Source: Nymphaea colorata
Lineage: Eukaryota > Streptophyta > Magnoliopsida > Nymphaeales > Nymphaeaceae
Length of the DNA: 64,000 nt
Direction: 5' to 3'
NCBI RefSeq assembly: GCF_008831285.2
Contig: NC_045138.2
Span: 39,485,115 to 39,549,114 of the forward strand
Shown: positions 4,401 to 62,831 of the stretch, piece by piece
Layout of the letters: every line of letters begins with the position of its first letter
Position numbering within the stretch: the first letter of the stretch is position 1
Notes under the pieces: generated by a model
Database searches by the model: none
What the model saw: only the letters and a program-made list of their open reading frames with translations
What the model was told of the DNA's origin: nothing
Translations under genes and position numbers: made by a program

Positions 4401-7400
4401 GTGGTGATGATACTTCTCTCTCAGATGCCATCCTTCCACTCTCTGAGATACATAAACCTCGCCTCCCTCATCCTCAGCTTGGGCTACTCTTTCGTGGTTG
4501 TTGGTGCTTGCATTTATGCAGGTTTGGACTTCACACACTTACTTCACAGTGACATATCCTCTTATTTCTTATTCATGTTCCATACGCAGGACATATAATT
4601 CATGCTGACCCTGCCCACCTAAGTATGATGAGAAAATTCACACTATATTTACCTTGAAATTTCGTGGACCTGCTTGAGCGGGCTAGGTTTTCAACAATTA
4701 ATCAACTGAGTTAGGTACGTTGGAACAGTATGTGAGTGTTTCATGAATTACCAACAAATTCCTTGAAACTAATGTTTATGAATCTGCTCTAATCTTTGTG
4801 GATTCATGAAACACTTATATACTTCTAATAGAAAAGCTGCCTCATTTTGCAGTTTTATATCCGAAATTTTGGATGCCGAGGTGCCATTTTGGATTGGCTT
4901 TGAGTTAACATGCTGGTCCTCTGAGATCTTGGATTTGGATCCAATTTTAAATCTCGATAATGAGCGCGGCAAGATCTAGGATGAATCAAGTGAGCTGATA
5001 GTGTTCTTTACTGTTTCTTTTGTTAGGGTACTCGAAGGACGCCCCACCCAAAGACTATTCGCTAGAATCATCAAAGTCTGCACGGACATTCAGTGCCTTC
5101 ACGTCCATCTCCGTCCTCGCTTCCGTTCTCGGTAATGGGATTCTCCCCGAGATCCAGGTACGCCTGATCCCAAGAATGTTTCATAATCATCTCTTAAATC
5201 ATCTGCTTTGTTCTAATAATAGATCATATGACTGATAACATTAATTCCACGGGCTTGGATTTGGGCACAGAAAAAATATATATATATATAATTTGTTTCG
5301 CATTTGGATGCCCAAAATTACATGAATGACCCCAAGAAAAAATGACAAATGGATAAGATTAGGAATGTTAATGGATCAGATTTTAATCAGATTTTCAAAT
5401 ATTCATATGTTCGCATTTGGATACTAACAAAAAAAATATATTTGGATCTAAATCCAAAATCTAATTTCACAATCCAAATCTGACCTAAATCTGATTTTTG
5501 CATTCACTCCCAAATTCGAATCTGAATTTTGAACCGAATGTAATGGATTTTTAAAAATATAAGGGCGTTGGATATATAATATTTATGTAAAACTAAATCT
5601 AGTCAGAATCCAAATCTAAATCTGATCAGATTACTTATGTACATCCCAATCCATATCTGGCAAATGTCATTTCTTAAATATGAATCTGATCCAATTTCTT
5701 AATTGGATATCAAATTTTGTTTTCTATATCCAATTTTTTCAGAATTGATGGGTTGAATATCCAATCCAAATTAAATATATTGACACCTCTATCTAAGACC
5801 CAAATGAAAGAAGAATATTTATCTGCTCATATATCTACATTGTTTCTGGGAAATTTTAAAAATTTAGTTCTATTTTAGATTTGAATTGGTTATGTCGCTT
5901 ATTCTCATTTTCTCAAATGCTTCGTCGCGGAATGCTTAACGAGAGTTGAATATGGTAATGATATATATATATACTCTACTTGGTGACGTTCCATTAGCGT
6001 AATAATGAAAAACTTTAAACTTCTCGTCAATTTTTTTGGGATTTCGCTCGCGTCGATAAACATCCACTCAAGTTCATTGGTGACGGATATTCTAAAATTC
6101 CAGTTATTGTTTTACGTATAAAAAATTTAAGTCAAACTCAGCTGATCTCAACGATCTCGATAACGACCAAACCATTGATCTCCACAACTTTGATTGCCAT
6201 TGTCTTAAAAATTAATTTGTTAGAGTACATTTAACTAAAAACAACAGGAACTACCTGAAACTGGTTCACAATTCCCTTGATTTTTTCAAATTGGCAAGCT
6301 GTTAGCCAGGCCAAAAAACTGGGAGATTGTGTTGCGAGACTCAAAATCACCAAATTTTAGCGTGCTATTGAACATTCACCACTACAACGTGGTTGTTTTT
6401 TTATGTCCACTTCTCTATAGAGGTTCTCATGTTCTACATCCCAACTCATCCCGAGTCGTCATCCCGGCAGGGGCAGAAGCAGGTGAGGTCATTCTGAGTC
6501 AGGCGTATGCTCTACAAAACTTAATTTAGTGTTGAATCTTGGGTGAATCTGAATTCAGAGTTGTATGGGTAATGAGATTGAGTTCATGATCAATTGAAAA
6601 TTTGTTAATATTTGTGTCTATAGGCGACTTTGGCACCTCCGGCAGCAGGGAAGATGCTGAAGGGGCTGATCATGTGCTACACTGTCGTAATGGTGACTTT
6701 CTATTCTACGGCCATCACCGGTTATTGGGCGTTCGGCAACAAAGCCAGCTCCAACATCTTGAAGAGTCTCATGCCCGACGATGGGCCTTCTTTTGCTCCC
6801 ACATGGCTCCTTGGCCTTGCCGTCGTCTTCGTCCTCTTGCAGCTCTTCGCCATTGGCATGGTAGGCAGCTCGCAGCACAGCCTGTTTCTAATTGCACACA
6901 CAGAAAACAGCAGCGCCGTCATGGGGTTCGCCAGATCCACTTCTTTCTTACAAACTTCCTTGGCGCCATGAACACTTTTTTCAGAAAATACGAACCATGC
7001 TAGTTGCTTTTTAAATGGATTGGGGATCTTACAAAGGAATTGCCTGGCCAATTACCATCTGCAGGTATACTCTCAAGTTGCATACGAAATCATAGAAAGG
7101 AAGTCGGCAGATGTGAGGAAAGGCATGTTCTCAGCGAGGAACCTTCTGCCCAGGTTGCTGCTTCGATCCGTCTACATGGCAGCCTGCGCCTTCGTCGCGG
7201 CCATGCTTCCCTTCTTCGGGGACATAAATGGGGTGGTGGGAGCCATTGGCTTCATCCCTCTGGACTTCGTCCTCCCCATGCTCCTCTACAACAAGAGCGT
7301 GAAGCCACCTCGCACCTCCCTTACCTTCTGGATCAACGTCTCCATCATGTTTGTGTTTTCCGGCGTCGGGCTCATGGGTGCTTTCTCGTCCATCAGGAGG

Positions 7401-7454
7401 CTGGTTCTGGATGCCAATCGATTCAAGCTCTTCAGCAATGATGTGGTTGATTGA
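1406..7454 (+). CDS. GABA transporter 1-like amino acid permease (AAAP family), 7 coding exons
   Basis: Predicted plasma-membrane, proton-coupled carrier for gamma-aminobutyrate and related amino acids. Coding exons are 1406-1487, 2086-2316, 3451-3548, 4335-4521, 5027-5157, 6624-6860 and 7065-7454; frames join without a break to give 451 aa, the same size as Arabidopsis GAT1 as I remember it. Family blocks are seen in order: [20 protein letters not shown] (first membrane helix region), [71 protein letters not shown] and the C-terminal [10 protein letters not shown], which matches the usual family ending. About ten hydrophobic segments are spread over the protein. The start at 1406 sits in a good context (ACCATGG) and gives the usual acidic N-terminus. 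Oddities: intron 2 begins with GC instead of GT (2317-2318), intron 5 carries a decayed repeat, and the last codons are duplicated in the 3' flank. A related AAAP carrier with another substrate cannot be excluded. Confidence 0.93.
5361..5790. repeat. Decayed dispersed repeat with AGGGATGT-like ends, in GAT1 intron 5
   Basis: The left end reads AGGAATGTTAAT and the right end, on the other strand, reads AGAGGTGTCAAT. Between them are many degenerate copies of short words such as AAATCTGATC and ATCCAAATC. Related ends occur at 38620-38631 and 53523-53534. A (TA)n run of about 16 bases sits just upstream (5275-5290). No coding capacity or target duplication is seen. Confidence 0.45.
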
Positions 7455-18933: not shown

Positions 18934-21900
18934 TCAATCATCTTCTACCATCTTCATCAACATGTCATTCCAGGAGTCTATAGGTCCAGGCAGGCACCAA
19001 TGCAAACAGTCGTTCTGCACCTTAGCATTTTTGTCCTGTGCAAAAGGATGGAGCTGTCTGTATGGCCCAGGATGCCCATCAGGCCGTAACAATGACAGCA
19101 TGGTTGTGTCAAAAAGTTTAAATTTTGCTGTATTTGCTGTCTGCCTTTCAAGTGCTTTCTCGAATTGCTCTAGCTCAATATCTCGCAGGATCCTGTCCAT
19201 ATCACTGATGCTGATCTCATTTTCTTTGAATGGCCTAGTCCTTTTGCATGTTCCCCCACTAAACCACTCTCCATTTTCAAAGTGAGATGGTGTTGAGGTC
19301 CTAAAAAATGTCACAACATTGTGCTTGGATGTTGCAATATAGTCAAATACCGATCCAAGTACCTTCCTGTAGGAATGCTGAAAACCAAGTTCAGTCAGAT
19401 TCCTTTTTGGGCAATAATGGCAACCAACTATCTTCCCTTCCTCATAGAAAATACTGGTCTTCAGGAACCACTTGCCACCCGCAATAACGACGAAGTCGAA
19501 TTTCTCGAATTGGTCAGTCCATTTCTTGTCCAGAACATCAAGATGCAACTCAATTTCAGATGTTGAGACACCATTTATGTCCTCAAAGATATCTGCTTTT
19601 GCAAGAAAAGGTGACCATATAACTGCAAGAGTGAAGTTGTATGAAGGAAACTGCCAGGTCCGGGACTTGTATTCTTCGTCATGGTAAACATCAACAACTT
19701 CAGCCACCTAAGGCAAGATAAGTCAGGACTTAGCAACAAATGCAAGAAAAAAAAAACTTGAACCTAAATTTGTGGCCCAAAATGAAGCCTCAGGTCCACC
19801 GGTCGCATTGACAGAAAAGAAAATGCTAGTAATACAATGGAGCCAATTATATCAGAAACATTGTAAGACATTCTTTTCCATTTTTTACTGGAAAACAGTA
19901 ATGTATTTCTCCTCAAAACTTCAAACTTACCAACAAGACCCAAACTTTGAAAGTTCAGGAGACCAACCAAACATTGTTACAAGGATACTTGAACCAGTTT
20001 ATGCATAAAATGAAATCTGAGAATCAGATTATTTGTGTTCAACACTTGTAAACTAGGTCATCCGGAACCCAGATGAATTCAGAAGGATGACCATTTCAAT
20101 GGACTGTGTAAAAGCTACACATCCTCATTGCAGTGCATATGCATGGAGTCATGGGCAGCATCAGTAAGACCCAACTTTCAATAACTGAAAGAAACATAAC
20201 CAATCAACAACAAAACAAAATTCTTAAAGATGGGTCATTGTCTACAAGGCAACTTAGCAGGTCAAGGGAAGCCACACGTCCTCAATAGTCAAAACTAGGT
20301 CATATTCATTAAGAAGAGTCCACCAGAGCTAGAAATGCCATCACACCTTTATAGTAATTAATTATCATTTCATAATATATGATGCTAATTTCTGGATTAT
20401 CCCTTCTAGTGATAGGTTATAGACCAAGATGCATGTATTGTAGCTACACAGGTCGTGGCAGGTTTGGTATAGGAATCCATCTTACCACAAGGCTATGAAT
20501 TAACAAATTCTTTTTGAAACCAACAGTCCTTCTCTGACATTGCCAAAGTTTGATCTTCAATCCTACATGCCTCAGACAGAGCCAAGTTGCTTATTGAAAG
20601 GAATATCAAACTTGATACCAGTTTTTGAAAAGACATTGTTGAATGAAGCCCAAAAGCAGGACCGATTTCTTTTCTCGAAAAAAGATACCGTACAAAAGAC
20701 AAAAGAAAACAGAGTTTGGCCAAGGAGAAATGACAAAGAGAGACTGAGACCAACATCTTGAAACACAAAACGTGGAAGGTGCAAACGCAGGTGAGAATCA
20801 TAACCATATGAGGAGTTGAGGACTAGTAATGCAAGTTCCCTCACAGAAACTAAAAACTAGTAGGTTGTAAACTGAAGCAACAGAATTTGAAACAAAACCA
20901 TGTACCATACGCAATGAAGCATTCAACAATGTAAACCTCTAGATGGAGCAGTCAAATTTGAGATCAAGAGGACAAGCGCATCAATGTGCTCTCCTTGGGA
21001 TATCCAAACTCGTACAAAATTTGAGGGACAATTTACTTCCCACAAATCAAACAGTAAAGCACATTTTTCTAGGAGAAAACAATGGCAGCTGTGCCAGCTA
21101 AGTCTTAAGAACTATTCCATACCTGAGACAGAAGACAGAGGAAAGACTGAACATGGTTCCTGCTAATGGAGTCCCCAATAAATGCCCATGTTTTATTTCT
21201 CATCATCTCTAGAAATTTCTCTCCATCAAAAACCGGCATCTCGCAATACCGAGGCTTCCACCTCCAATACAGATAGTCTGAGTCTGGTCGCCCATTCTTC
21301 ATGCAATTCTGATGATCTTCAATTCTCGGGCAAGTCGCGTTCGTATATCTAGGCCCAGATGGATAGTAGATCCAGTCTCCAACAAAAAAATCGCATTTTC
21401 CTGCATCAAATTGAAGCGTAGCCGAGATAAGCTTTACATGCATCAGAAGTGAAACAGAATTCCTCGATAATCAGAATCTGGGAAGCTCAAAATATAGAAA
21501 AGATATTCCCTATGATGTCACATGAAATGGCTCCACCATGAATGCAGCAGCTAGGGGCAAGAAAACATGACATGGAGGAGAAACAGCAAAAATGACAAAG
21601 AAGAAAATGGTCAATAAATCACATCCGAAGTTCACGGCATTTCCAGTCGCATAGAGTAGCAAACAAGCCAAGACAACGGCTGGTACCAAAGTCCTTTTAT
21701 ATTTCCTAGTAGATCAACTAAAAAATATGGAACCAATTTAAATATAGTTTATGAAAATGGAAAGCAAATCCGCGACGAAAATCTGATTAACATAATTGAT
21801 TTCACAAGAACGCGTGAGCTAAATAAGTCGTATATGAATTATGAACTTCTCCTGGCTATTCTCAAACCAACAGAGGAGCCCAAAAAGAGAGAGACGGATA

Positions 21901-29867: not shown

Positions 29868-32800
29868 CTATACAATTGCCTTGGGAAGCCGCATTCCAAA
29901 CCCACGTTTTATTTTCTCAACACTGCACCAAAGTTCATGCAAGTCATTATATGCAAGCAAATAGATAAAATCATCAGACAAAAGCATCTGTGATGAAATT
30001 CAGTTCATGAAATTTCCTTCAAAAATACTAGGACATGGTTAGATGCTAACATAGCAAGGAAAATGCTTCAAGAATGAGACAGGATCTCAGCATAAGCAAA
30101 ACAGGGTCCAACCTTACATATTGCAATACCCTAACAATAGAGTTTTCCCTTTAAAAGTTGCATCAATATGATAGAAGCTTCTCTATTTCATTCAAACCAT
30201 GAAGCCAAATGTATGGAAAACAAACTGTAGAATACTTGCTTGTAGAAAATATCTGTACCAAAAGTTATCATGTACGAGGCTGATTAGTTTGTCATATTCT
30301 CAAATAAGGCCCGCTGCATGACATTCATGAGAAAATTAACTTGCACAAGTGCAGCAGCTACATCTGATGTAGTATAGTTGCTTAGAAGACATATAAACCT
30401 ACATGCAAATACATTCTAAAGAGGTGCAAAATTGTAAATATGCAACCAGGTTCAAAAGGCACTTGGCAACACAGCTGGTTGATTCTTATTACTGCCATAA
30501 AACAGCCAACGAACTTCTATAGTACATGCATCAATAATCTATTTAGAAGGTGACAGTATTTTTGTTTGGTTGAAATTAGACACAGAAATCCTACACCAAA
30601 GCAGACTAGACTTCTCAGATGGATCTTGCCTATAATTGAGAAGAAGAAAGCAGAACATATGATCAAAAGAGAAACTTACGTTGGTGCAAGCTTGCCAAGG
30701 CAGTCCAACTCTTCTCCTGTGGCCTCATCAAACACCTTCCCTGAGATCTCAATAATGTATGACTTGTCTCTTGTAGTGGGCAGTCCCCTGCTAACAAGTA
30801 GGTCCCAATCTTTCTGGTGAAGCTCTCGACCATTGACAAGGACACCAGTGTTTCCACCAGAACAATCTTTCGGCACAGGATAATCGAACTCTTCTATGGA
30901 TGGCTACATATGAGATGAAATGCCATTGAAATACTCATACAAAAATGCCTACCAACAAAGAGTAATGGAAACGGTACACTGGCTAAAAATGGTTTGCACT
31001 TTGAACTAAAATATAAACTCACAGGAATTATCCCAATGCAAGGCTGTCCCATGACACCCCAAAATCCAGCTCGTGGGTCATACCTGGACGATGACAGTTT
31101 CACAATTCACCATCAATATTATACCAAATGCAAGTAAAGTATAGAAGGCCAACCAGCAATAAAACTGAAAAATGTACCATAAATTGATTTATCAGTAGAC
31201 ATGGAACACTATAGTTCCTAGAACAAGTGCTGAAATAAGACTAACGATCAGAAAGCTTACCATGAAAACAAAACTAAACAATCAGGAAGCTTACTGTTAA
31301 AATTAGGTGAAGCCCTTTACATCTAAGTTCGTGTATGCCATAAGTAATAATGCAAGTAAAGTATAGAAGGCCAACCAGCAATAAAACTGAAAAATGTACC
31401 ATAAATTGATTTATCAGTAGACATGGAACACTATAGTTCCTAGAACAAGTGCTGAAATAAGACTAACAATCAGAAAGCTTACCATGAAAACAAAACTAAA
31501 CAATCAGGAAGCTTACTGTTAAAATTAGGTGAAGCCCTTTACATCTAAGTTCGTGTATGCCATAAGTAATCAAAACAAAAATTTTGGAAAGGAATAGAGA
31601 TGACAAGAAAGAATGTGCTGACCAGTAATTCCCAGGATAGATAGGACCAGCTTGCTTTTCAGCCTTCCTAACCAATTTCTCAGGTATAGGTTTGCCATTA
31701 ACTGAGACATGAGTCTTCTCGCTATCTGATGAATGAGTAACCCTTGAGAAGTCCTTAAAGCTCTTCTTTATGAGATTAGTGAAGAATGACTCGCTTCCCT
31801 TCATGCTCCTTTCAGCAGATTCTTCTCTTCTTCCCTCCCCAGGATCTTGTGACACATCGAGGCTGGAGTCCCTTGGCATTGAAAGCTCTATCTCAGTTGC
31901 TACAGATGGCTCTTTGAAAGAGTGTTGTTTAAAGTTTCTTGTGGGCTTTTTCTTGGAAGTGCCTTGTGATGGATAAACTTTCTGCTCGTCTGAACGCTTG
32001 CTCCTGGTTCCTTCAAAATTAGAAACCATTTCATCATAAGATGAATGTCCAGAGTCCTCTTGAGGTGGAGAAGATGCTGCTGGTGAATCAACCCCTGACT
32101 TAAAGGATAACTGGTTGTACAGCTTTCTGCTTGTAGCAAGATTCCCTTCCCCATCCTGCGATGTGCTGGAAGATGAAAAATCAGACTGCCCTTTTTCAGG
32201 TTCACTCAAGTTTGGCCTCTCTTCCATCTGATCAATGGGATGACACAAGAGGACTCCATTTTCAGTCATGTTACGGTTAGACAAATGAGAAGGGAATGCA
32301 GATCTCCGATTTTCATGAGCCCCACGAGATGGATTTATCTGCCCATGCGAATAATCTCGGTCATGAAAATTACCCTGCCCAGTAGTCGAAGAGGCTATGC
32401 GAGAAAACACTTGTTCCCTTGATTCGCTATGAACGCTACCAGCATCTACAGAGGTAATCAGACTCTTGCCATCAAAAGAAACTAGGATTATTTTTGAGCA
32501 CGCCCCACATTGCAACTTGCAAGAACCTTCAGCCTGGGGGCGAAATTTCTCAGGTAACTTGAGCAACTGCAAGCAATGACAACAGGAGATAAATGGAGCT
32601 CCACCTCCAATGGGAAAGCATCCTCTTGTATACCCCACTTCAGGTAGATCCCTAGGCAAACTACGGTTCTGTCGCCGAGAAGCCTGTTCTATATCAGTAT
32701 ATGCAGCCCTTCGAACAGTGCGACTGGATTGATAAGAACTCAAAGGAGGACGAGCGGCATCCAAACCAATATAATCATGTATACCTTCTACCAATGGAAT

Positions 32801-34421
32801 ATCAGCATCATCATGATAATACATTGGACCACCCACAAGCTTCGGCATCCTCTGGTGATATAGAAGCCTAGATTGAGCTTGTGCTGGAACTTTAAGCTGT
32901 CCGTAGTAACAATTCGAGCAAGAGCAAATGGGAAAGGAGTCAACAGAATCAGGGTCAGTCTCCACGTACCTTCCAGTAAAATAACTGTTCTGGTCTCTGC
33001 TCATCAAGCCTCTCCCAGCCATCGGCATATGTGGGAATCGGGGAGCTTGGTGTGCAGGAATTCTTATCAATTGATCCCCATACGGATCCTTGTAGTTCAG
33101 AAGTTCATCATGGGCATGCCTGTGGTGACCAAAAGCAGGAACACCCAAGTGCTGCCTGCCCATCATAGTATGAGAAGCAGCTTGTTGGTGGCTATCGAAT
33201 TCAAGATCACGGCTATAGTAATACGGTCTCCGCATCAAATCTTCATGGCGAGAATGGTCCCTCAAGTTTCTCACTGGACCATAAGAACCCTGCTGCGGAA
33301 AACCTCGAGTTCTCCTCGCATTCAAAGGGATTCCATCATTTGGTGGCAAACCAGAGATATCACAGGATCTGGTGATTTGTTCCCTCAATTCGTCGAGCTT
33401 CTTGAGGAGTTCCCTCCTGTCCTGCTCCAGGTGCTCCACTCTATTGGCTCCGGCCACAGCGTGACCGTAGAAACCATCCTCATAGTCGCGGGCACCTCCA
33501 TGATGGAAATTCGACGGGCCTTCGTCTGGATATATCCGGTACTTGCTACAACCATCAAGCAAAGGACGGGTCCTCAAGCCACGGTCAGACTCGTCCCTCC
33601 GAATGTCCGGCGGCATCGAAATTTGATCAACAGAACCCCACGTCAGACCCTTCCCTTTGGTCTGTCTGCTATCGAGCTCCCCGCCGTCGTTCATAATGGA
33701 GCTCCGGTCGCTCCCGGTCGAGTTCTTAACAGGGGCATCAGTCGAATCCCCTGTTCCACTCCTGCTCGTGGTTCCTTCAGCACTTTCCACCCCACTACCA
33801 TTCCCCAGAACCTCATCAGTCTGTCCCACCACCGTTGGAACCTCCACTTCTGACTCGTTCGAAGGAACAATCCCCTGGTCTTCTCGATTCTCTTTTTGAG
33901 CAACCAGCACCGTTACTTCTGGAGAAGGAACTGGCTCGTCGTCACTAACACCCTGCTCCTTCTCCTCTGCCATTTCTCCGGCTACCTCAACAACATCACC
34001 CACAGTCTCCTTCGACGGCTCACCGCCTAAAGACTGTGCCTCCTCAGAGGCATGTGAAGGTGAACTCTCGTCGACAGAATTAGGCAGTTCAGTGGATACT
34101 CCCTCCCTCTCCGAATTAGGTAGCTCGGTTGGTACTACCTCCCTTTCTCCTCCAGCCAACCCGTTCTCCTCCTCCTTGAATTTCTGTTGCAAACTCGCGG
34201 CATACCTCTTCGCTGCTCGTAAACCAAAACAAAATCAATGACCAACAAAAACAAATAACCACGGGAGAAAGAGATGCCGAAAACAAGGTAGGGAAGGAAG
34301 ACTCACACTGAAGTTTAGCGCCACAACCACCGCACTGATACACAGGGTAGTCAGCGGGCTCGACGAGGAGGTTCTCGCATTTGGGGCAACGAACCAATCG
34401 AGCCTTCGTTCCCTCCACCAT
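29868..34421 (-). CDS. EDR4-like zinc-ribbon protein (DUF3133), 5 exons
   Basis: Related to Arabidopsis ENHANCED DISEASE RESISTANCE 4, which restrains salicylate-dependent defence and cooperates with clathrin and EDR1 at membranes. Exons: 34421-34307, 34212-31623, 31083-31023, 30903-30680 and 29922-29868; phases join to 1014 aa. The N-terminal zinc ribbon is C12-P-K-C15 with C30-G-G-C33 (VRCPKCENLL, VYQCGGCGAKL). A long acidic, serine-rich region follows, a short coiled coil (HLEQDRRELLKKLDELREQI) near residue 300, then a second ribbon around 575-620 (FISCCHCLQLLKLPEKF, KLQCGACSKIILVSFDGKSL) read from 32600-32460. The conserved C-terminus is split over exons 3-5: AGFWGVMGQPCIGIIP, VNGRELHQKDWDLL, SRGLPTTRDKSYIIEISGK, and last-exon VEKIKRGFGMRLPKAIV. 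The final 55-nt exon is too short for ORF finding but matches the remembered family ending. Intron 2 contains a 222-bp tandem duplication. Confidence 0.9.
31127..31570. repeat. 222-bp tandem duplication inside EDR4 intron 2
   Basis: Two adjacent copies (31127-31348 and 31349-31570), each starting AATGCAAGTAAAGTATAGAA. By eye they differ at one base (GACTAACGATCAG in the first copy, GACTAACAATCAG in the second). The second copy ends about 50 bases before the exon 2 donor, so splicing signals are not duplicated. Confidence 0.85.
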
Positions 34422-55379: not shown

Positions 55380-58300
55380 ATGGAAGGGATGGATGAAGGT
55401 CCTCAGAGCGAGACGGTAAAGCAGACGACGGGGTGTCCGCCCACTAAGGTAACCGACACTGATAACGTCCTGCAGCTGGATAGGTGCAATGCGTTGGAAT
55501 CTCAAGCCCAATTTGCTTCATCAGAGCACGAGTGGCCAGAAGAGCTCTCTTCATTCAGGTCACTTCTGGCACATAATGCCATTAGTTTGTACCCTGGATC
55601 ACCAGTGGTTTTTGGGGAGATTTTAGAAGCCAAGAGACAAATTCTTGATAGCTCAAAAGGTGGATCCCTTTCCCATTCTTGGTCTAATTCTGGGCATGAT
55701 TGCCCTATGAATAATACTGACTTAATGGTTGAAGAATTGACATTCAATAACTACAAAGGGAGGCCAAATGTTTCCTCAGCGGATGGGTGCTCGAATGCTG
55801 CACCTGTTGAAATTTGTGAAGTTGGGCAAGCGCAGGGAAGAAGAGTCCATGGGCAGAACCCTCACCAAATCGTGGATCAAGGAAGTGGAAGTGCACACAG
55901 TCAGGTGACCTGTAAGGAACAGGCAACTGTCGATTTTAGCGCAAAAATGCCCTCTGCAGGAACTCATGGTGATACTGACAAAGAGAAGTTCAGGAATGTC
56001 CGGTTGCACAGGACTTGGGACCAGACGCCGGTTTCAATTCTGCGTCCCTGTCAAGAACGTAGTATAGTTGTTGGGAACTTGGAGTCCAGTGATAGGCATC
56101 ACCAGTTAAGCGCTCCATCAACCACTGAAGTGCAGGGTGGGGGGATCCGCACCAGAGTTATATCATCTTCTGGATTTTCCGAGTTCTTTGCCAGGAGCAC
56201 CTTCAAGGGAAAAGGGATTGCAGTTAGGGATGTGGAGCCTCTTAAAGAATCTGATGCTGTTGCAAAACCTATAAATTTTGGAAAAGGTGTTTCTGATGCT
56301 AACATTTGTTCAGATGCATCTGAAGGTTCTGTTGCTTGTGCTGGTACTTCATCTTCACAGACTGGTTGTGGGATCAGTTTTGGTTCATTTGAGGATGCTG
56401 TTAATGTAAGGGAGTGGCTTCAGCCTGGGAGCCATAAATTAAATAAATCTGAACGACTGATTGTATTTAAGCAAATTGTAGAGCTAGTCAATCTGGCTCA
56501 CTCTCAAGGGGTTTTTATAAAAGATTTGTGGCCATCAAGTTTTGTGATCTCGTCACAGAATCAAGTTAATTATGTTGGTTCTTCAAGTTTTCATATGCCT
56601 TTGGGTAGTTCAGGTGGTACTTCTGCTTTCATGCACTCTTCTGTTGGTGGCCATTTGAAACGGAAGCGACAACATATGTCGATTCCTTTTGACAATAGCA
56701 CAGGAACTGGCATGAAACATGATTACTGGTCATTGGGTGGTTTTCACAGCCATTTAAGTCCATTGTCAAAACCTCAGCGGTTCAGCAGTGGCTTGAGGTT
56801 ATCTAATCAGCATCCCTTATCACCATCAACATATGATTTAAGACCTGAACCAGTAGCAGACGTAGCTGCAAATACTAATTTATTACCACATTCTCGGGGT
56901 AAACTGAGGGTACATCAGAGTGAGTATGAGGATCGTAATACCTCAAAAAGGTACATTGGCTCAGATTTGCCTAATCAACCTCAGAAACATTTTGTTCTTA
57001 ATGTTAAGCAGTTGGAAGAGATGTGGTATACTAGTCCAGAGGGGATCAACGGCAAGGCATGTTCCTTACCATCAAACATATACAGTCTTGGTGTTCTCCT
57101 TTTTGAGGTATGCACATGCTGGAGATATGATTGATTCTTTTTCTTTCACTTACCTTGAATATTGTTTTTTTTTCTTGGTTATAAGTTTCATAAATATGAC
57201 ATAAATCAAATTGCAAAATTCTTTTTCAGCTTTTTGAATATTAGTATTTCACTATTTCTAAATATTCTTAAAGATAAATGAAAACAAAATGACAAGAAAA
57301 GTAATGTTCAAATTTCTACCTTTCATAAATTCTCTTTTTGTGGTGCTTCTTTTTACAGTTGCTGCAAAAGCTGTCATGGTCATGTTTTTTATTATGAACT
57401 AACTCCATGTCACTCTAAAAGATCTTCACTTTATCATTTCTGTTAGTGAACCTTTGCTAACTTGTATGCATATGATTATGTTAATCGGCAAAAACTTATG
57501 GATTTGCAAATTTTTTATGGGGATGCTAATAAGAATATTCTTTGTCTAAAGGAATTTCAAACAAATAGATATTGGACATTGATTGGGATTTTTTATGTTT
57601 TTGTTACTTGCATGCTCTTGAGCTTCTGCCGCTACAGGGATTTCTTCTTATGCTATGCTGTAACCTGTATGTATGAACTATGAAGCTAGTGGCAATGCTT
57701 TTTTGTGTCAGCTGTTTTGCTGTTCCAAGTCATGGGAGATGCATGAAGCATCAATGTCAGATTTGAGGCATCGTATCCTCCCTCCAAATTTCTTGGCTGA
57801 GAATCCAAAGGAAGCGGGTTTCTGTCTTTGGCTGCTCCATCCCGAGCCACTATCTCGACCTAAAGCGAGGTATGTACTTAGGGGAAGCACTTTTTTTGGT
57901 AGAGTTCCTTTAATATGTGTACCATAGACCATAGTACGTTGTTAAGACAAATTCCAGAATGTAGCATCTTCCCTTTCAATGCAAAATAGTTGCAAATTCG
58001 AAAACTGCACCACCAAATGGAGGGTGATACATATATTTCCAGCTATGAACATCACGTGTTGGCAAAACATGGTAATAAGCAATAACACCATAGAGAATCA
58101 ATATTAGGGGAAGAATGGGTGAGAGAAGACATCACATCGCATGTGTTTGATTGTATTTATGGTAATATTAGGGGAAAAAGGGGCAGGACATCACATGGTA
58201 TGTGTTGGTCTAAATAGTGGCTCTTAAGAGGTGCTTAAATGGTGGTCAAGCTAAGACAGACTTTTGACTGGACTGTACATTCCTCATTGAAACATGGTTT

Positions 58301-61300
58301 TTAAACATAGTTAAGGGCATCCCATGACATGTTCTGCCAAACTTGCTTAAAAGCCTCCTTTTCTAAAAATTTCTGTTGCATCCTTGGGTGCGACTGAAAT
58401 GGGGGAAGAGAACATCTCAGACATTCTCTTCCATCTCTCAGGCACACCTTACTGTGTCTTGTTAACATGGGATTACTTTTCCCCTCATGGTATCGTATAT
58501 GTTAAGTAGAAGTTTCGCTTATTCATGTTAAGTAGGAAAGAGAGAGAGAGATGGTTTTTTTTGCTAGTGTGTGGCTGCCTTTTTACTATAATTATTCCTC
58601 CAGAAGATGACAACACTGCCAATGTACTAAGGGAAAACTATTTTTTACATAAGCAGAATTAAGATGAACATTTGAGAACCTGGTGTTGTTGGTATTGGCA
58701 GAAGCAAAAGGTATGAGGTCGTAACATTTATTGGTCATGCAACAAAAAGAGATGGCCAGGATTGTTTCTGTGTTGTGGAGTCATGCTAAAGTATAGCAAA
58801 ACTGACTGTCTACCACGGCTGTCCTTTGACAGTATAGTAAGAAGAATAAAAAAAAATCATTGTTGAAGAAAATAAAGATGAATGAACAAGAAAACTATTA
58901 GTAATTTTCACTAAGCAAGAATGACTGATAAGATTTATGCTACTGTATCGAGCATGTTTGCAGGACTATATTCTTTTTTCGATTTTTATATTGAAATTTA
59001 TACATAATTACATATTTTTATTATTTAAAATTTGAACATATTTATTGAGTTAAAAATCAAAGAAATTCATCCTGTTTTTGGCTTTTACTGATATAATCCA
59101 GCTTCTGTTTTTTGATCCTTGTTCAGATCTGTGTTCACAACATTACTTTGAGTGATTCTATGGGAGCTATGTCACAAAAACACTTAACAGACATTGTCGG
59201 AAGAACACTTTATAGACATTTTTTGTATTAAACCTGTATGTCATGCAATCAACGTAGTCTCATTCAGCTTATTTGAACAATATGCATTGGAAATTTTTAT
59301 GAAATTTGCATTTATTCTATCTTTATTTGGACTGATTTATTGGTGTTTTAATTATAATATGGTAGCAATTGTTGCTTACAGTTTTCATCTAAAATGCTGT
59401 TTAGAGAGAGAGAGAAAGAGAGCAATTTCATGTGTTTTATTTGGTAAATAGCATAGGCCTCCAGAGAATGGAAGTCTTGATTGTCTACCTTATCAAGTTA
59501 GTGTAAGTTTGGCATCTCTGCTTAGACATGGAGGCTTCTCATTTTTCATCCTTTGGTATAACAAACAGGGAAGTGCTGCAATCAGGTTTGATCTTTGAAT
59601 CACCTGAGATCTCAGGGGAAAATAATTCATCTCTATCTCTTGATGAAGAGGATGTTGAATCAGAGTTGCTGCTGCATTTCCTTTTACCTTGAAAGAGCAG
59701 AAGCACACACTATCCTGTAAGCTGGTTGAAGATATCGGAAGTCTAGAAGCAGATATATTGGAAGTTGAGAGAAGGCAAGCACTGTTGCAAGGTAATTCCT
59801 TTCTGCCGAAGTCACACAAGGAGGATAAAGCAGGCGATGACTTGAGAACTCAAATTCAGGATATCACTGAAAATCTAGGTTCAACATGTCAAAATAAAGA
59901 ATCTTTGGCAACAAATGTGGGAGGTTCCTCTTGGTCACCTATCTCATGTTCTAATGAAGCCAGGATATTAAAGAATATTAGTCAGTTAGAGGATGCATAT
60001 TTTTCCATGCGTTCAAAACTTAAGCTTGCTGAAAGTGAGAATGTAACACGGACAGACAGGGACGTGCTGAGGAATCAAGATAGATGCTCCTCACCGTCAG
60101 CTGATAGTGCTGAGGGTTCTAAGGATTCTGAAATAGAGGACACACGTGGAGCTTTTTTTGATGGCTTCTGTAGGTATGCACGATACTCTAAGTTTGTAGT
60201 ACGTGGTGTTCTAAGAAATGGCGATCTCCTCAATTCTGCAAATGTTATTTGCTCTTTGAGTTTTGACCGTGATGAGGAGTATTTTGCTGCTGCTGGTGTA
60301 TCAAAGAAGGTCAAGATCTTCGAGTTCCAGTCCTTAATGAATGGGATGGTTGACATTCACTACCCTGTGATTGAGATGTCAAGCAGATCTAAGCTCAGCT
60401 GTGTATGCTGGAATAGCTATATTAAAAACTACTTGGCATCAACTGATTATGATGGTGTAGTTCAGGTTTGTCTTCAATATCTACTGGAAAAAAATAATTG
60501 GTGAAAATGTTTCTCATGCTGATAGTTTATTCATTGTTTTTAGGAATCATAAATAGTGATTCTGTTAATTCCTTCTGCTTTATCTTGCAACTTCTATTTT
60601 CTTCCCAGCTCTCTAACATGCACACCTAAATCAAACCACTCTTCTTATTAAGGAGGCCTAACCAGCTCGTCTCATCTTGTCTTTCTTGAAAATATTTAAA
60701 ATACTGAAATAGAACAGGAAAAGCCAGGAACTAGAAGTCTATTTAAGAAATCTGAAGCTGGTCGTTTCTGCAACTGTTTCACACATTTATTGATTTATGT
60801 CATGCTTCATTCCATTGTGTTCTTGTTTAACATGTGCTTCAATATGTAAACTGTTGGTAAAGAATTGAAAAACCTCATAGTTGTCCTGAATGAAACCAAA
60901 TTGCTTTGACAAGGAAATGAAAATTAGGGACGGAAGTGCAATGTTACAAAGGAAAAAAAGCACTTGATAATTGATATTATTTTGAAGTTGAGGAAAAATT
61001 ACCTTGGATTAGACAAACTTTATCTCAACCTGGAACCATAGCTGGACAGTTGAATTAATTTGTAAAATTTGCAATAAGTTGCAGGTTTGGAAGGTAGACA
61101 ATTAAGCTGGACAATGTAATTAATTTGTAAAATTTGCAATAAGTTGCAGGTTGGAAGTTAGATACCTAACTGAATCGTTGGAATAAGAGACCACTAATGA
61201 AGTAAAAAATTAGTTTGTGATGACTTTTTTGTACTTTTAGATTGTAATTTTTGCTTGATTACAATTTGCGTGCATCCTTGATTAAGGATCTGATCTGTTT

Positions 61301-62831
61301 CATTTTTTGGTGTGGTACATCTTTCTCAGCTATGGGATGCAAACAGTGGGCAGGGATTTATGAACTACGGAGAGCACCAAAAGAGAGCATGGTCTGTTGA
61401 TTTTTCTGTAACTGATCCAACAAAGTTGGCCAGCGGAAGTGATGACTGTTCTGTGAAACTTTGGAGCATCAAAGAGGTATCTGTTTTCACTTTTCTGTTA
61501 ATTACACTGCTTTTGTTTATGGATCTTAATAAGCAAAGATATGCAAATCAAATAAGAATCCACTCTGGTTCTTTCCAGTGGAACATAGGTGTGGAGCTTA
61601 TTGAATGATTGTAAAATAAGGTCCATTCTGATTTTGCCAGCCTTGTATAGCTTTGTCATGACCTGTCCACTTGCAAATGAGGAACTGGAGATGCATTAAT
61701 CATCTCTCTAGAAGATTGTCAACTAGTGTTCGTTTATATTTTATAGCTTGGCAGCCAATTGATTTCTTTGGTTCTATATGAGAAGCCATTGGAAAAATAT
61801 AGGAGAAAGGCATTATTTTGAAAGTGGCTTTTTTTCTTTCTAATTTCCATATAGGAATGTGATTGTTTGATCATTAAAGGAACTAATTTTTACGTGATTT
61901 TGATAACTTTGAAGAAAGTTTGCTTTTCAAAATTTGCAGCTCACCCAAATTCTTTTCTTTTCATTTTGTTTACAGAAAAACTCTATCGGCACAATAAGAA
62001 ACCATGCAAATGTCTGTTGCGTCCAATTTTCCCCATATTCCACACATTTGTTGTCCTTTGGCTCAGCTGATTACAAGGTCTTCTGTTATGATCTTCGAAA
62101 TACAAGAGTACCATGGTGCACGTTAGCTGGACATGAGAAAGCTGTCAGTTATGTGAAATTCTTGGATGCGAGCACAGTCATTTCAGCATCCACTGATAAT
62201 AAACTGAAGATATGGGATCTCAATAGAACAAATTACTCTGGTCTCTCTTCCAGTGCTTGCAGTTTGACCTTGAAGGGTCATACAAATGAAAAGGTTTGTG
62301 TTCTAGTTTCTGAAATAATTTTTCAAAACAGTTATCTTTATGCTGATGAAGATATAAATAATTTTATTTTTCAGAACTTTGTGGGCCTCTCTGTTTCTGA
62401 TGGGTATATTGCATGTGGGTCTGAAACAAACGAGGTACTTTTTTTAACTTAAGTCTCACTTTGTCTACTTATCTCTTGCAAATGACACTTTAGTATGCTA
62501 GAAAATTCGAAAGAATATGTGTGGTACTTGCTTGATCATGACTCATCAAATTCAACGAAGATAAATTTTGGTTTTAGTGGATTCCTAAACATTAAACAAT
62601 CTGAACAAGTGTTGCTTATTCATGCTACCTCTCCCACAGGTTTATGCCTACCATAGGTCTCTTCCTATGCCGATAACTTCTCACAAGTTTGGTGCTTTGG
62701 ATCCAGTGTCGGGGCAAGAGATAGGTGATGATAATGGGCTGTTTGTTTCTAGTGTTTGTTGGAGGGCAAAGTCAAACATGGTTGTTGCTGCAAACTCCAA
62801 TGGTAATATTAAGCTGTTGGAGTTAGTTTAG
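55380..62831 (+). CDS. SPA1/SPA2-type repressor of light signalling, 7 coding exons, with a frameshift
   Basis: Plant partner of the COP1 ubiquitin ligase that represses photomorphogenesis in the dark. Exons: 55380-57107, 57712-57869, 59569-60465, 61330-61476, 61976-62293, 62375-62434 and 62640-62831. Exon 1 holds a long variable N-terminus and the start of a degenerate kinase-like region ([26 protein letters not shown]); exon 2 continues it ([32 protein letters not shown]). Exon 3 carries the coiled coil ([16 protein letters not shown]) and [14 protein letters not shown]; exons 3-7 encode WD40 repeats ([58 protein letters not shown]) ending in KLLELV. In exon 3 one base is missing near 59687-59691: the frame reads into TGA at 59690-59692, giving a 669-aa product without coiled coil or WD40. 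Downstream sequence is open in the other frame with all family blocks, so full length would be about 1166 aa. This is either a sequencing error in a short T run or a very recent mutation. Confidence 0.9.
57870..59568 (+). other. SPA intron 2
   Basis: The longest SPA intron (1.7 kb), with good donor (GCGAG/GTATGT) and acceptor (ACAAACAG/GGAAG). It contains an imperfect tandem repeat near 58100-58215 built on AATATTAGGGGAA and GACATCACAT, a short GA run near 59405, and nothing else I can name. Confidence 0.55.
61041..61165. repeat. 65-bp tandem duplication in SPA intron 3
   Basis: Copies start GCTGGACAGTTGAATTAATT at 61041 and GCTGGACAATGTAATTAATT at 61106, and both contain TTTGTAAAATTTGCAATAAG followed by TTGCAGGTT. 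They differ at a few positions. Confidence 0.75.

Follow-up and report, generated by a model that had tools for sequence, protein, structure and literature searches.

Does the SPA1/SPA2-type gene of Nymphaea colorata carry a genuine frame break, or does the break belong to the assembly rather than to the plant? The gene lies within the last 9 kb of the window, that is, the whole 64,000-nucleotide stretch of DNA analysed here, and occupies positions 55380-62831 on the + strand in seven coding exons. SPA proteins act in light signalling as COP1 partners in the COP1/SPA E3 ligase; their N-terminal kinase-like part resembles Ser/Thr kinases weakly, and their C-terminal WD40 domain is COP1-like, with seven blades. 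The family is defined by a kinase-like domain, a coiled coil and WD40 repeats, and divides into the subgroups SPA1/2 and SPA3/4 (PMC4091655). The published assembly comprises 409 Mb in 804 scaffolds, with 14 pseudo-chromosomes, and was produced with PacBio RSII, Canu, Arrow and Pilon (PMC7015852); the assembly analysed here has 407.77 Mb in 783 contigs. A search of one literature collection for SPA genes in Nymphaea found no publication. Elsewhere the window contains an amino-acid transporter exon (7020-7454, +), a PC-esterase (PMR5-like) gene (18934-19707, -) and a gene with an EDR4 zinc-ribbon domain (31496-34192, -). The SPA locus itself is made up of the following features.

55380-57107, +, coding exon 1: 576 codons that comprise the ATG, an N-terminal extension of about 330 residues and the bulk of the kinase-like domain; donor GTATGC
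57712-57869, +, coding exon 2, which completes the kinase-like domain
59569-60465, +, coding exon 3: end of the N-terminal domain, SELLLHFL, the frame break, the coiled-coil region and the start of the WD40 part
59585/59586 (junction), +, possible exonic donor CAG/GTTTGA, the sole plausible one for an exonic intron that would restore the frame
59684-59688, +, TTACC, the site of the break: 5 bases, against 6 in the partial copy on contig C12 and two whole codons in two SPA paralogues
59690-59692, +, premature TGA that ends the start-codon frame, giving a predicted product of 669 aa
61330-61476, +, coding exon 4 (WD40), undamaged when read in the shifted frame
61976-62293, +, coding exon 5 (WD40), intact
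62375-62434, +, coding exon 6 (WD40), intact
62640-62831, +, coding exon 7 (WD40), intact; TAG stop at 62829-62831

Exons 1 and 2, when joined, match Pfam Pkinase with 35.5 bits (cut-off 31.7), a partial match over residues 547-634. The downstream frame, which in the assembled sequence does not share the reading frame of the start codon, scores 92 bits with Pfam WD40 and aligns along its full extent with the WD40 domain of COP1 (E = 2e-110), while the segment between these two parts sits at the expected place of the coiled coil and aligns with the SPA paralogues. The same order of domains and a long N-terminal region ahead of the kinase-like part are common to Arabidopsis SPA1 and SPA2 (AT2G46340, AT4G11110) and rice OsSPA1. 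Both SPA1/SPA2 motifs were found: the boundary motif SELLLHFL is identical to that of Arabidopsis SPA1, and ARYSKF precedes the WD40 repeats as in SPA1 and SPA2 (PMC4957354). COP1, located at C1:41.73M in this genome, has a closely related WD40 propeller (structures 6qto, 5igo and others); however, it carries a RING finger and no kinase-like domain (PMC4091655). On domain order, both motifs and the length of the N-terminus, the locus is best read as a SPA1/SPA2-type gene, as the original prediction had it, with the subgroup taken from motifs and N-terminal length and not from a tree.

Two further SPA genes were found in the genome, at C9:276-282k and C1:37.93M. They share the domains and, in the part compared, the exon layout of the window gene, with about 40% identity in exon 3, but QEVLLQFL or QELLLEVL and LSYS replace SELLLHFL and ARYS. 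The stretch ahead of the kinase-like match is much shorter in the C1:37.93M paralogue, at about 80 residues compared with about 330 in the window gene. Because of the different motifs and, at C1:37.93M, the short N-terminus, both genes look SPA3/4-type. DNA searches of the genome, and protein searches that used exons 1, 3 and 5 as queries, turned up neither a second intact SPA1/2 gene nor a haplotig, so that no SPA1/2-type gene apart from that of the window was found.

As assembled, the window gene does not form a single continuous open frame. Its start-codon frame extends over 669 codons and ends at the TGA at 59690-59692 in exon 3, and the -1 frame is open for 497 codons, from TTG at 59689 to the TAG at 62829-62831, through exons 3-7 and the coiled-coil and WD40 regions. 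All six introns have GT-AG borders. The break falls at the boundary between the kinase-like N-terminal part and the coiled-coil part, directly after SELLLHFL, where only 5 bases separate the HFL codons from TTG-AAA-GAG. Compared with SPA1 and SPA2, the window copy is thus one base short and its start-codon frame stops ahead of the coiled coil; the two SPA3/4-type genes are unbroken at this site. Since the two frames jointly give a complete SPA-type architecture, and given the strength of the downstream COP1 WD40 match, the presence of a one-base frame break in the assembled sequence is confirmed far beyond chance. The original prediction had described a single-base frameshift in exon 3 with all other exons and splice sites intact, and that reading was exact. 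Programmed -1 frameshifting was set aside, as no X-XXY-YYZ heptamer is seen by eye in TTC CTT TTA CCT TGA.

The size and age of the break can be judged from the partial copy on contig C12. This 2.3-kb intron-containing fragment (C12:409114-411387, - strand) is 93% identical to the window gene; it runs from within intron 2 across exon 3 and intron 3 into the first part of exon 4, and lacks the other exons. It has 5-base and 1-base deletions of its own in exon 3 and has lost a splice donor. At the break site it reads GTAACC where the window reads TTACC, with an exact match on both flanks, and the C9 and C1:37.93M paralogues have six bases, or two whole codons. These alignments indicate that the window copy is exactly one base short at 59684-59688, in agreement with the expectation of a single missing base. 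The further proposal that this base was lost from the T run fared worse: relative to C12, loss of a T requires two additional substitutions, whereas loss of the G, or of one A of AA, requires one. The identity of the missing base thus appears ambiguous, and T loss is not favoured. Terminal inverted repeats flanking the C12 fragment were sought, none was convincing, and transposon capture of the fragment was set aside. Intron 3 of the window gene contains a near-tandem duplication of about 60 bases (61042-61162) that predates the C12 duplication, since the C12 copy shares it.

Substitutions between the window and C12 number 45/891, 31/490 and 47/854, with exon 3 and the introns about equally diverged. 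We polarised the amino-acid differences between the two copies with the C9 and C1:37.93M paralogues. The older residue was kept by the window at 11 of the 12 polarisable sites and by C12 at one (one-sided sign test, about 0.003); one further site was split. Because 11 of 12 polarised changes fall on C12, the window locus evolved as a working gene and stayed constrained after the duplication, and is therefore not an old pseudogene; the break is either very recent or absent from the plant. An old pseudogene with an intact gene elsewhere in the genome could draw on the existence of a second copy, but the decayed copy is the C12 fragment, which is missing the remaining exons; the searches revealed no further SPA1/2-type gene; and the window copy is constrained and has no other lesion. 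We regard this explanation as contradicted by these results and barely credible, since it would call for an intact SPA1/2 gene hidden in an unassembled gap. A processed or decayed pseudogene was rejected likewise, given the single lesion, the presence of introns and the concentration of polarised changes on C12.

A rescue by splicing was considered as well. Removal of part of exon 3 from a donor at 59585/59586 would restore the frame and yield a SPA protein without the SELLLHFL segment. The donor-like sequence is present, and several downstream AGs restore the frame (for instance, acceptors at 59696, 59753 and 59834). However, these acceptors score -1.5 to 0.2 compared with 1.3 to 4.3 for the annotated ones, the conserved SELLLHFL motif lies within the removed segment, and GA stands in place of the donor GT in the C12 copy. 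A rough plant site matrix was applied to every donor/acceptor pair that would restore the frame, and no pair had good sites at both ends. The frame-restoring splice pattern contemplated in the original prediction thus exists as combinations on paper, but all score poorly, including the best, which uses this donor; rescue of this kind is unlikely.

The choice between an error and a young allele depends on how accurate the assembly is. PacBio RSII assemblies polished with Arrow and Pilon retain occasional indels. We looked at dispersed intronless genes: in each of the 29 genes that have a whole GRAS domain, the domain lies in one frame, and 138 of 150 DYW-type PPR genes occupy open frames 485 codons or more in length. 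Reading the 12 short DYW genes one by one revealed introns, multiple lesions, or a frameshift combined with a stop, but a lone frameshift in none of them. Across both samples, about 230 kb of coding sequence, there was no lone frameshift, which limits lone indels in coding sequence to about 1.3 per 100 kb (95% bound); for the 3.5-kb SPA coding sequence, this amounts to 0.045 expected. A real disruption of the SPA gene is therefore possible. Among about 23 subtilase genes, by comparison, two otherwise intact-looking genes are split by a single frameshift, both in tandem arrays (C1:15741400-15743600 and C9:15433200-15436000); these may be errors or young pseudogenes. Two PPR-DYW genes, at C1:29.04M and C1:33.12M, have one frameshift and one in-frame stop each and are apparently young pseudogenes. 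Two nearby DYW-domain copies at C6:3.230M and C6:3.227M, which share the same open frames on their flanks, apparently stem from a recent local duplication.

A real and very young loss-of-function allele, homozygous or heterozygous, is a tentative alternative that deserves weight. Translation would end after 669 aa and the mRNA should undergo nonsense-mediated decay, because four introns lie downstream; any protein made would be a kinase-like N-terminus without coiled coil or WD40 repeats, and so would not join COP1 through its coiled coil. The break is single, clean and in unique sequence, lone frameshifts are absent from the comparable dispersed genes, the two single-break subtilase genes offer a parallel, and the SPA3/4-type genes could buffer the loss. 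On the other hand, the locus was constrained until recently and is the sole SPA1/2-type copy found, and genes of this kind seldom carry real null alleles.

The best explanation, to which we assign a probability of roughly 0.6, is a residual consensus error in the long-read assembly, which left the sequence one base short at 59684-59688. The downstream frame is kept perfectly over 497 codons with every splice site intact, while the C12 copy, a fragment free of constraint, has picked up two deletions that break the frame and has lost its donor in the same exon. Loss would also be costly, because this is the only SPA1/2-type gene found. Against an error, the assembly is clean where sampled (GRAS, DYW), and the break site is unique exonic sequence that should polish well with short reads. 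The per-gene base rate of errors is below about 0.045, and true null alleles are probably rarer still in a conserved regulator that is the only one of its subgroup; our division of probability between error and young allele follows from these rates and is a judgement, not a measurement. On this reading the locus is an ordinary SPA1/SPA2-type gene, maintained by purifying selection until recently. If the shortfall is a consensus error, the plant would carry an unbroken frame and produce a normal SPA protein that joins COP1 via the coiled coil and whose WD40 propeller recruits substrates and DDB1.

COP1 and SPA proteins meet via their coiled coils, and the WD repeats bind substrates and DDB1 (PMC4957354, PMC4091655). 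Both parts lie past the TGA and, as had been predicted, would be lost from a truly broken gene. Arabidopsis SPA1 without its N-terminus retains much activity (PMC4957354), so the part lost here is the one that matters most for E3 function. Visible effects on light responses, which were also anticipated, could nevertheless be buffered by the two SPA3/4-type genes, which would remain in the genome together with COP1. If the break is an artefact, the SPA gene will be mis-annotated or split in annotations of this assembly, and it should be flagged before a loss of SPA1/2 is inferred. A real break would amount to a natural knock-out of the one SPA1/2-type gene that was found, and would reveal whether an early-branching flowering plant can repress photomorphogenesis in the dark with SPA3/4-type proteins alone. 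It is improbable, though worth stating, that the break is both real and fixed in the sequenced line; this would give an early-branching flowering plant with only SPA3/4-type SPAs, in which the kinase-like N-terminus may persist, and thereby a natural test of the need for SPA1/2-type proteins.
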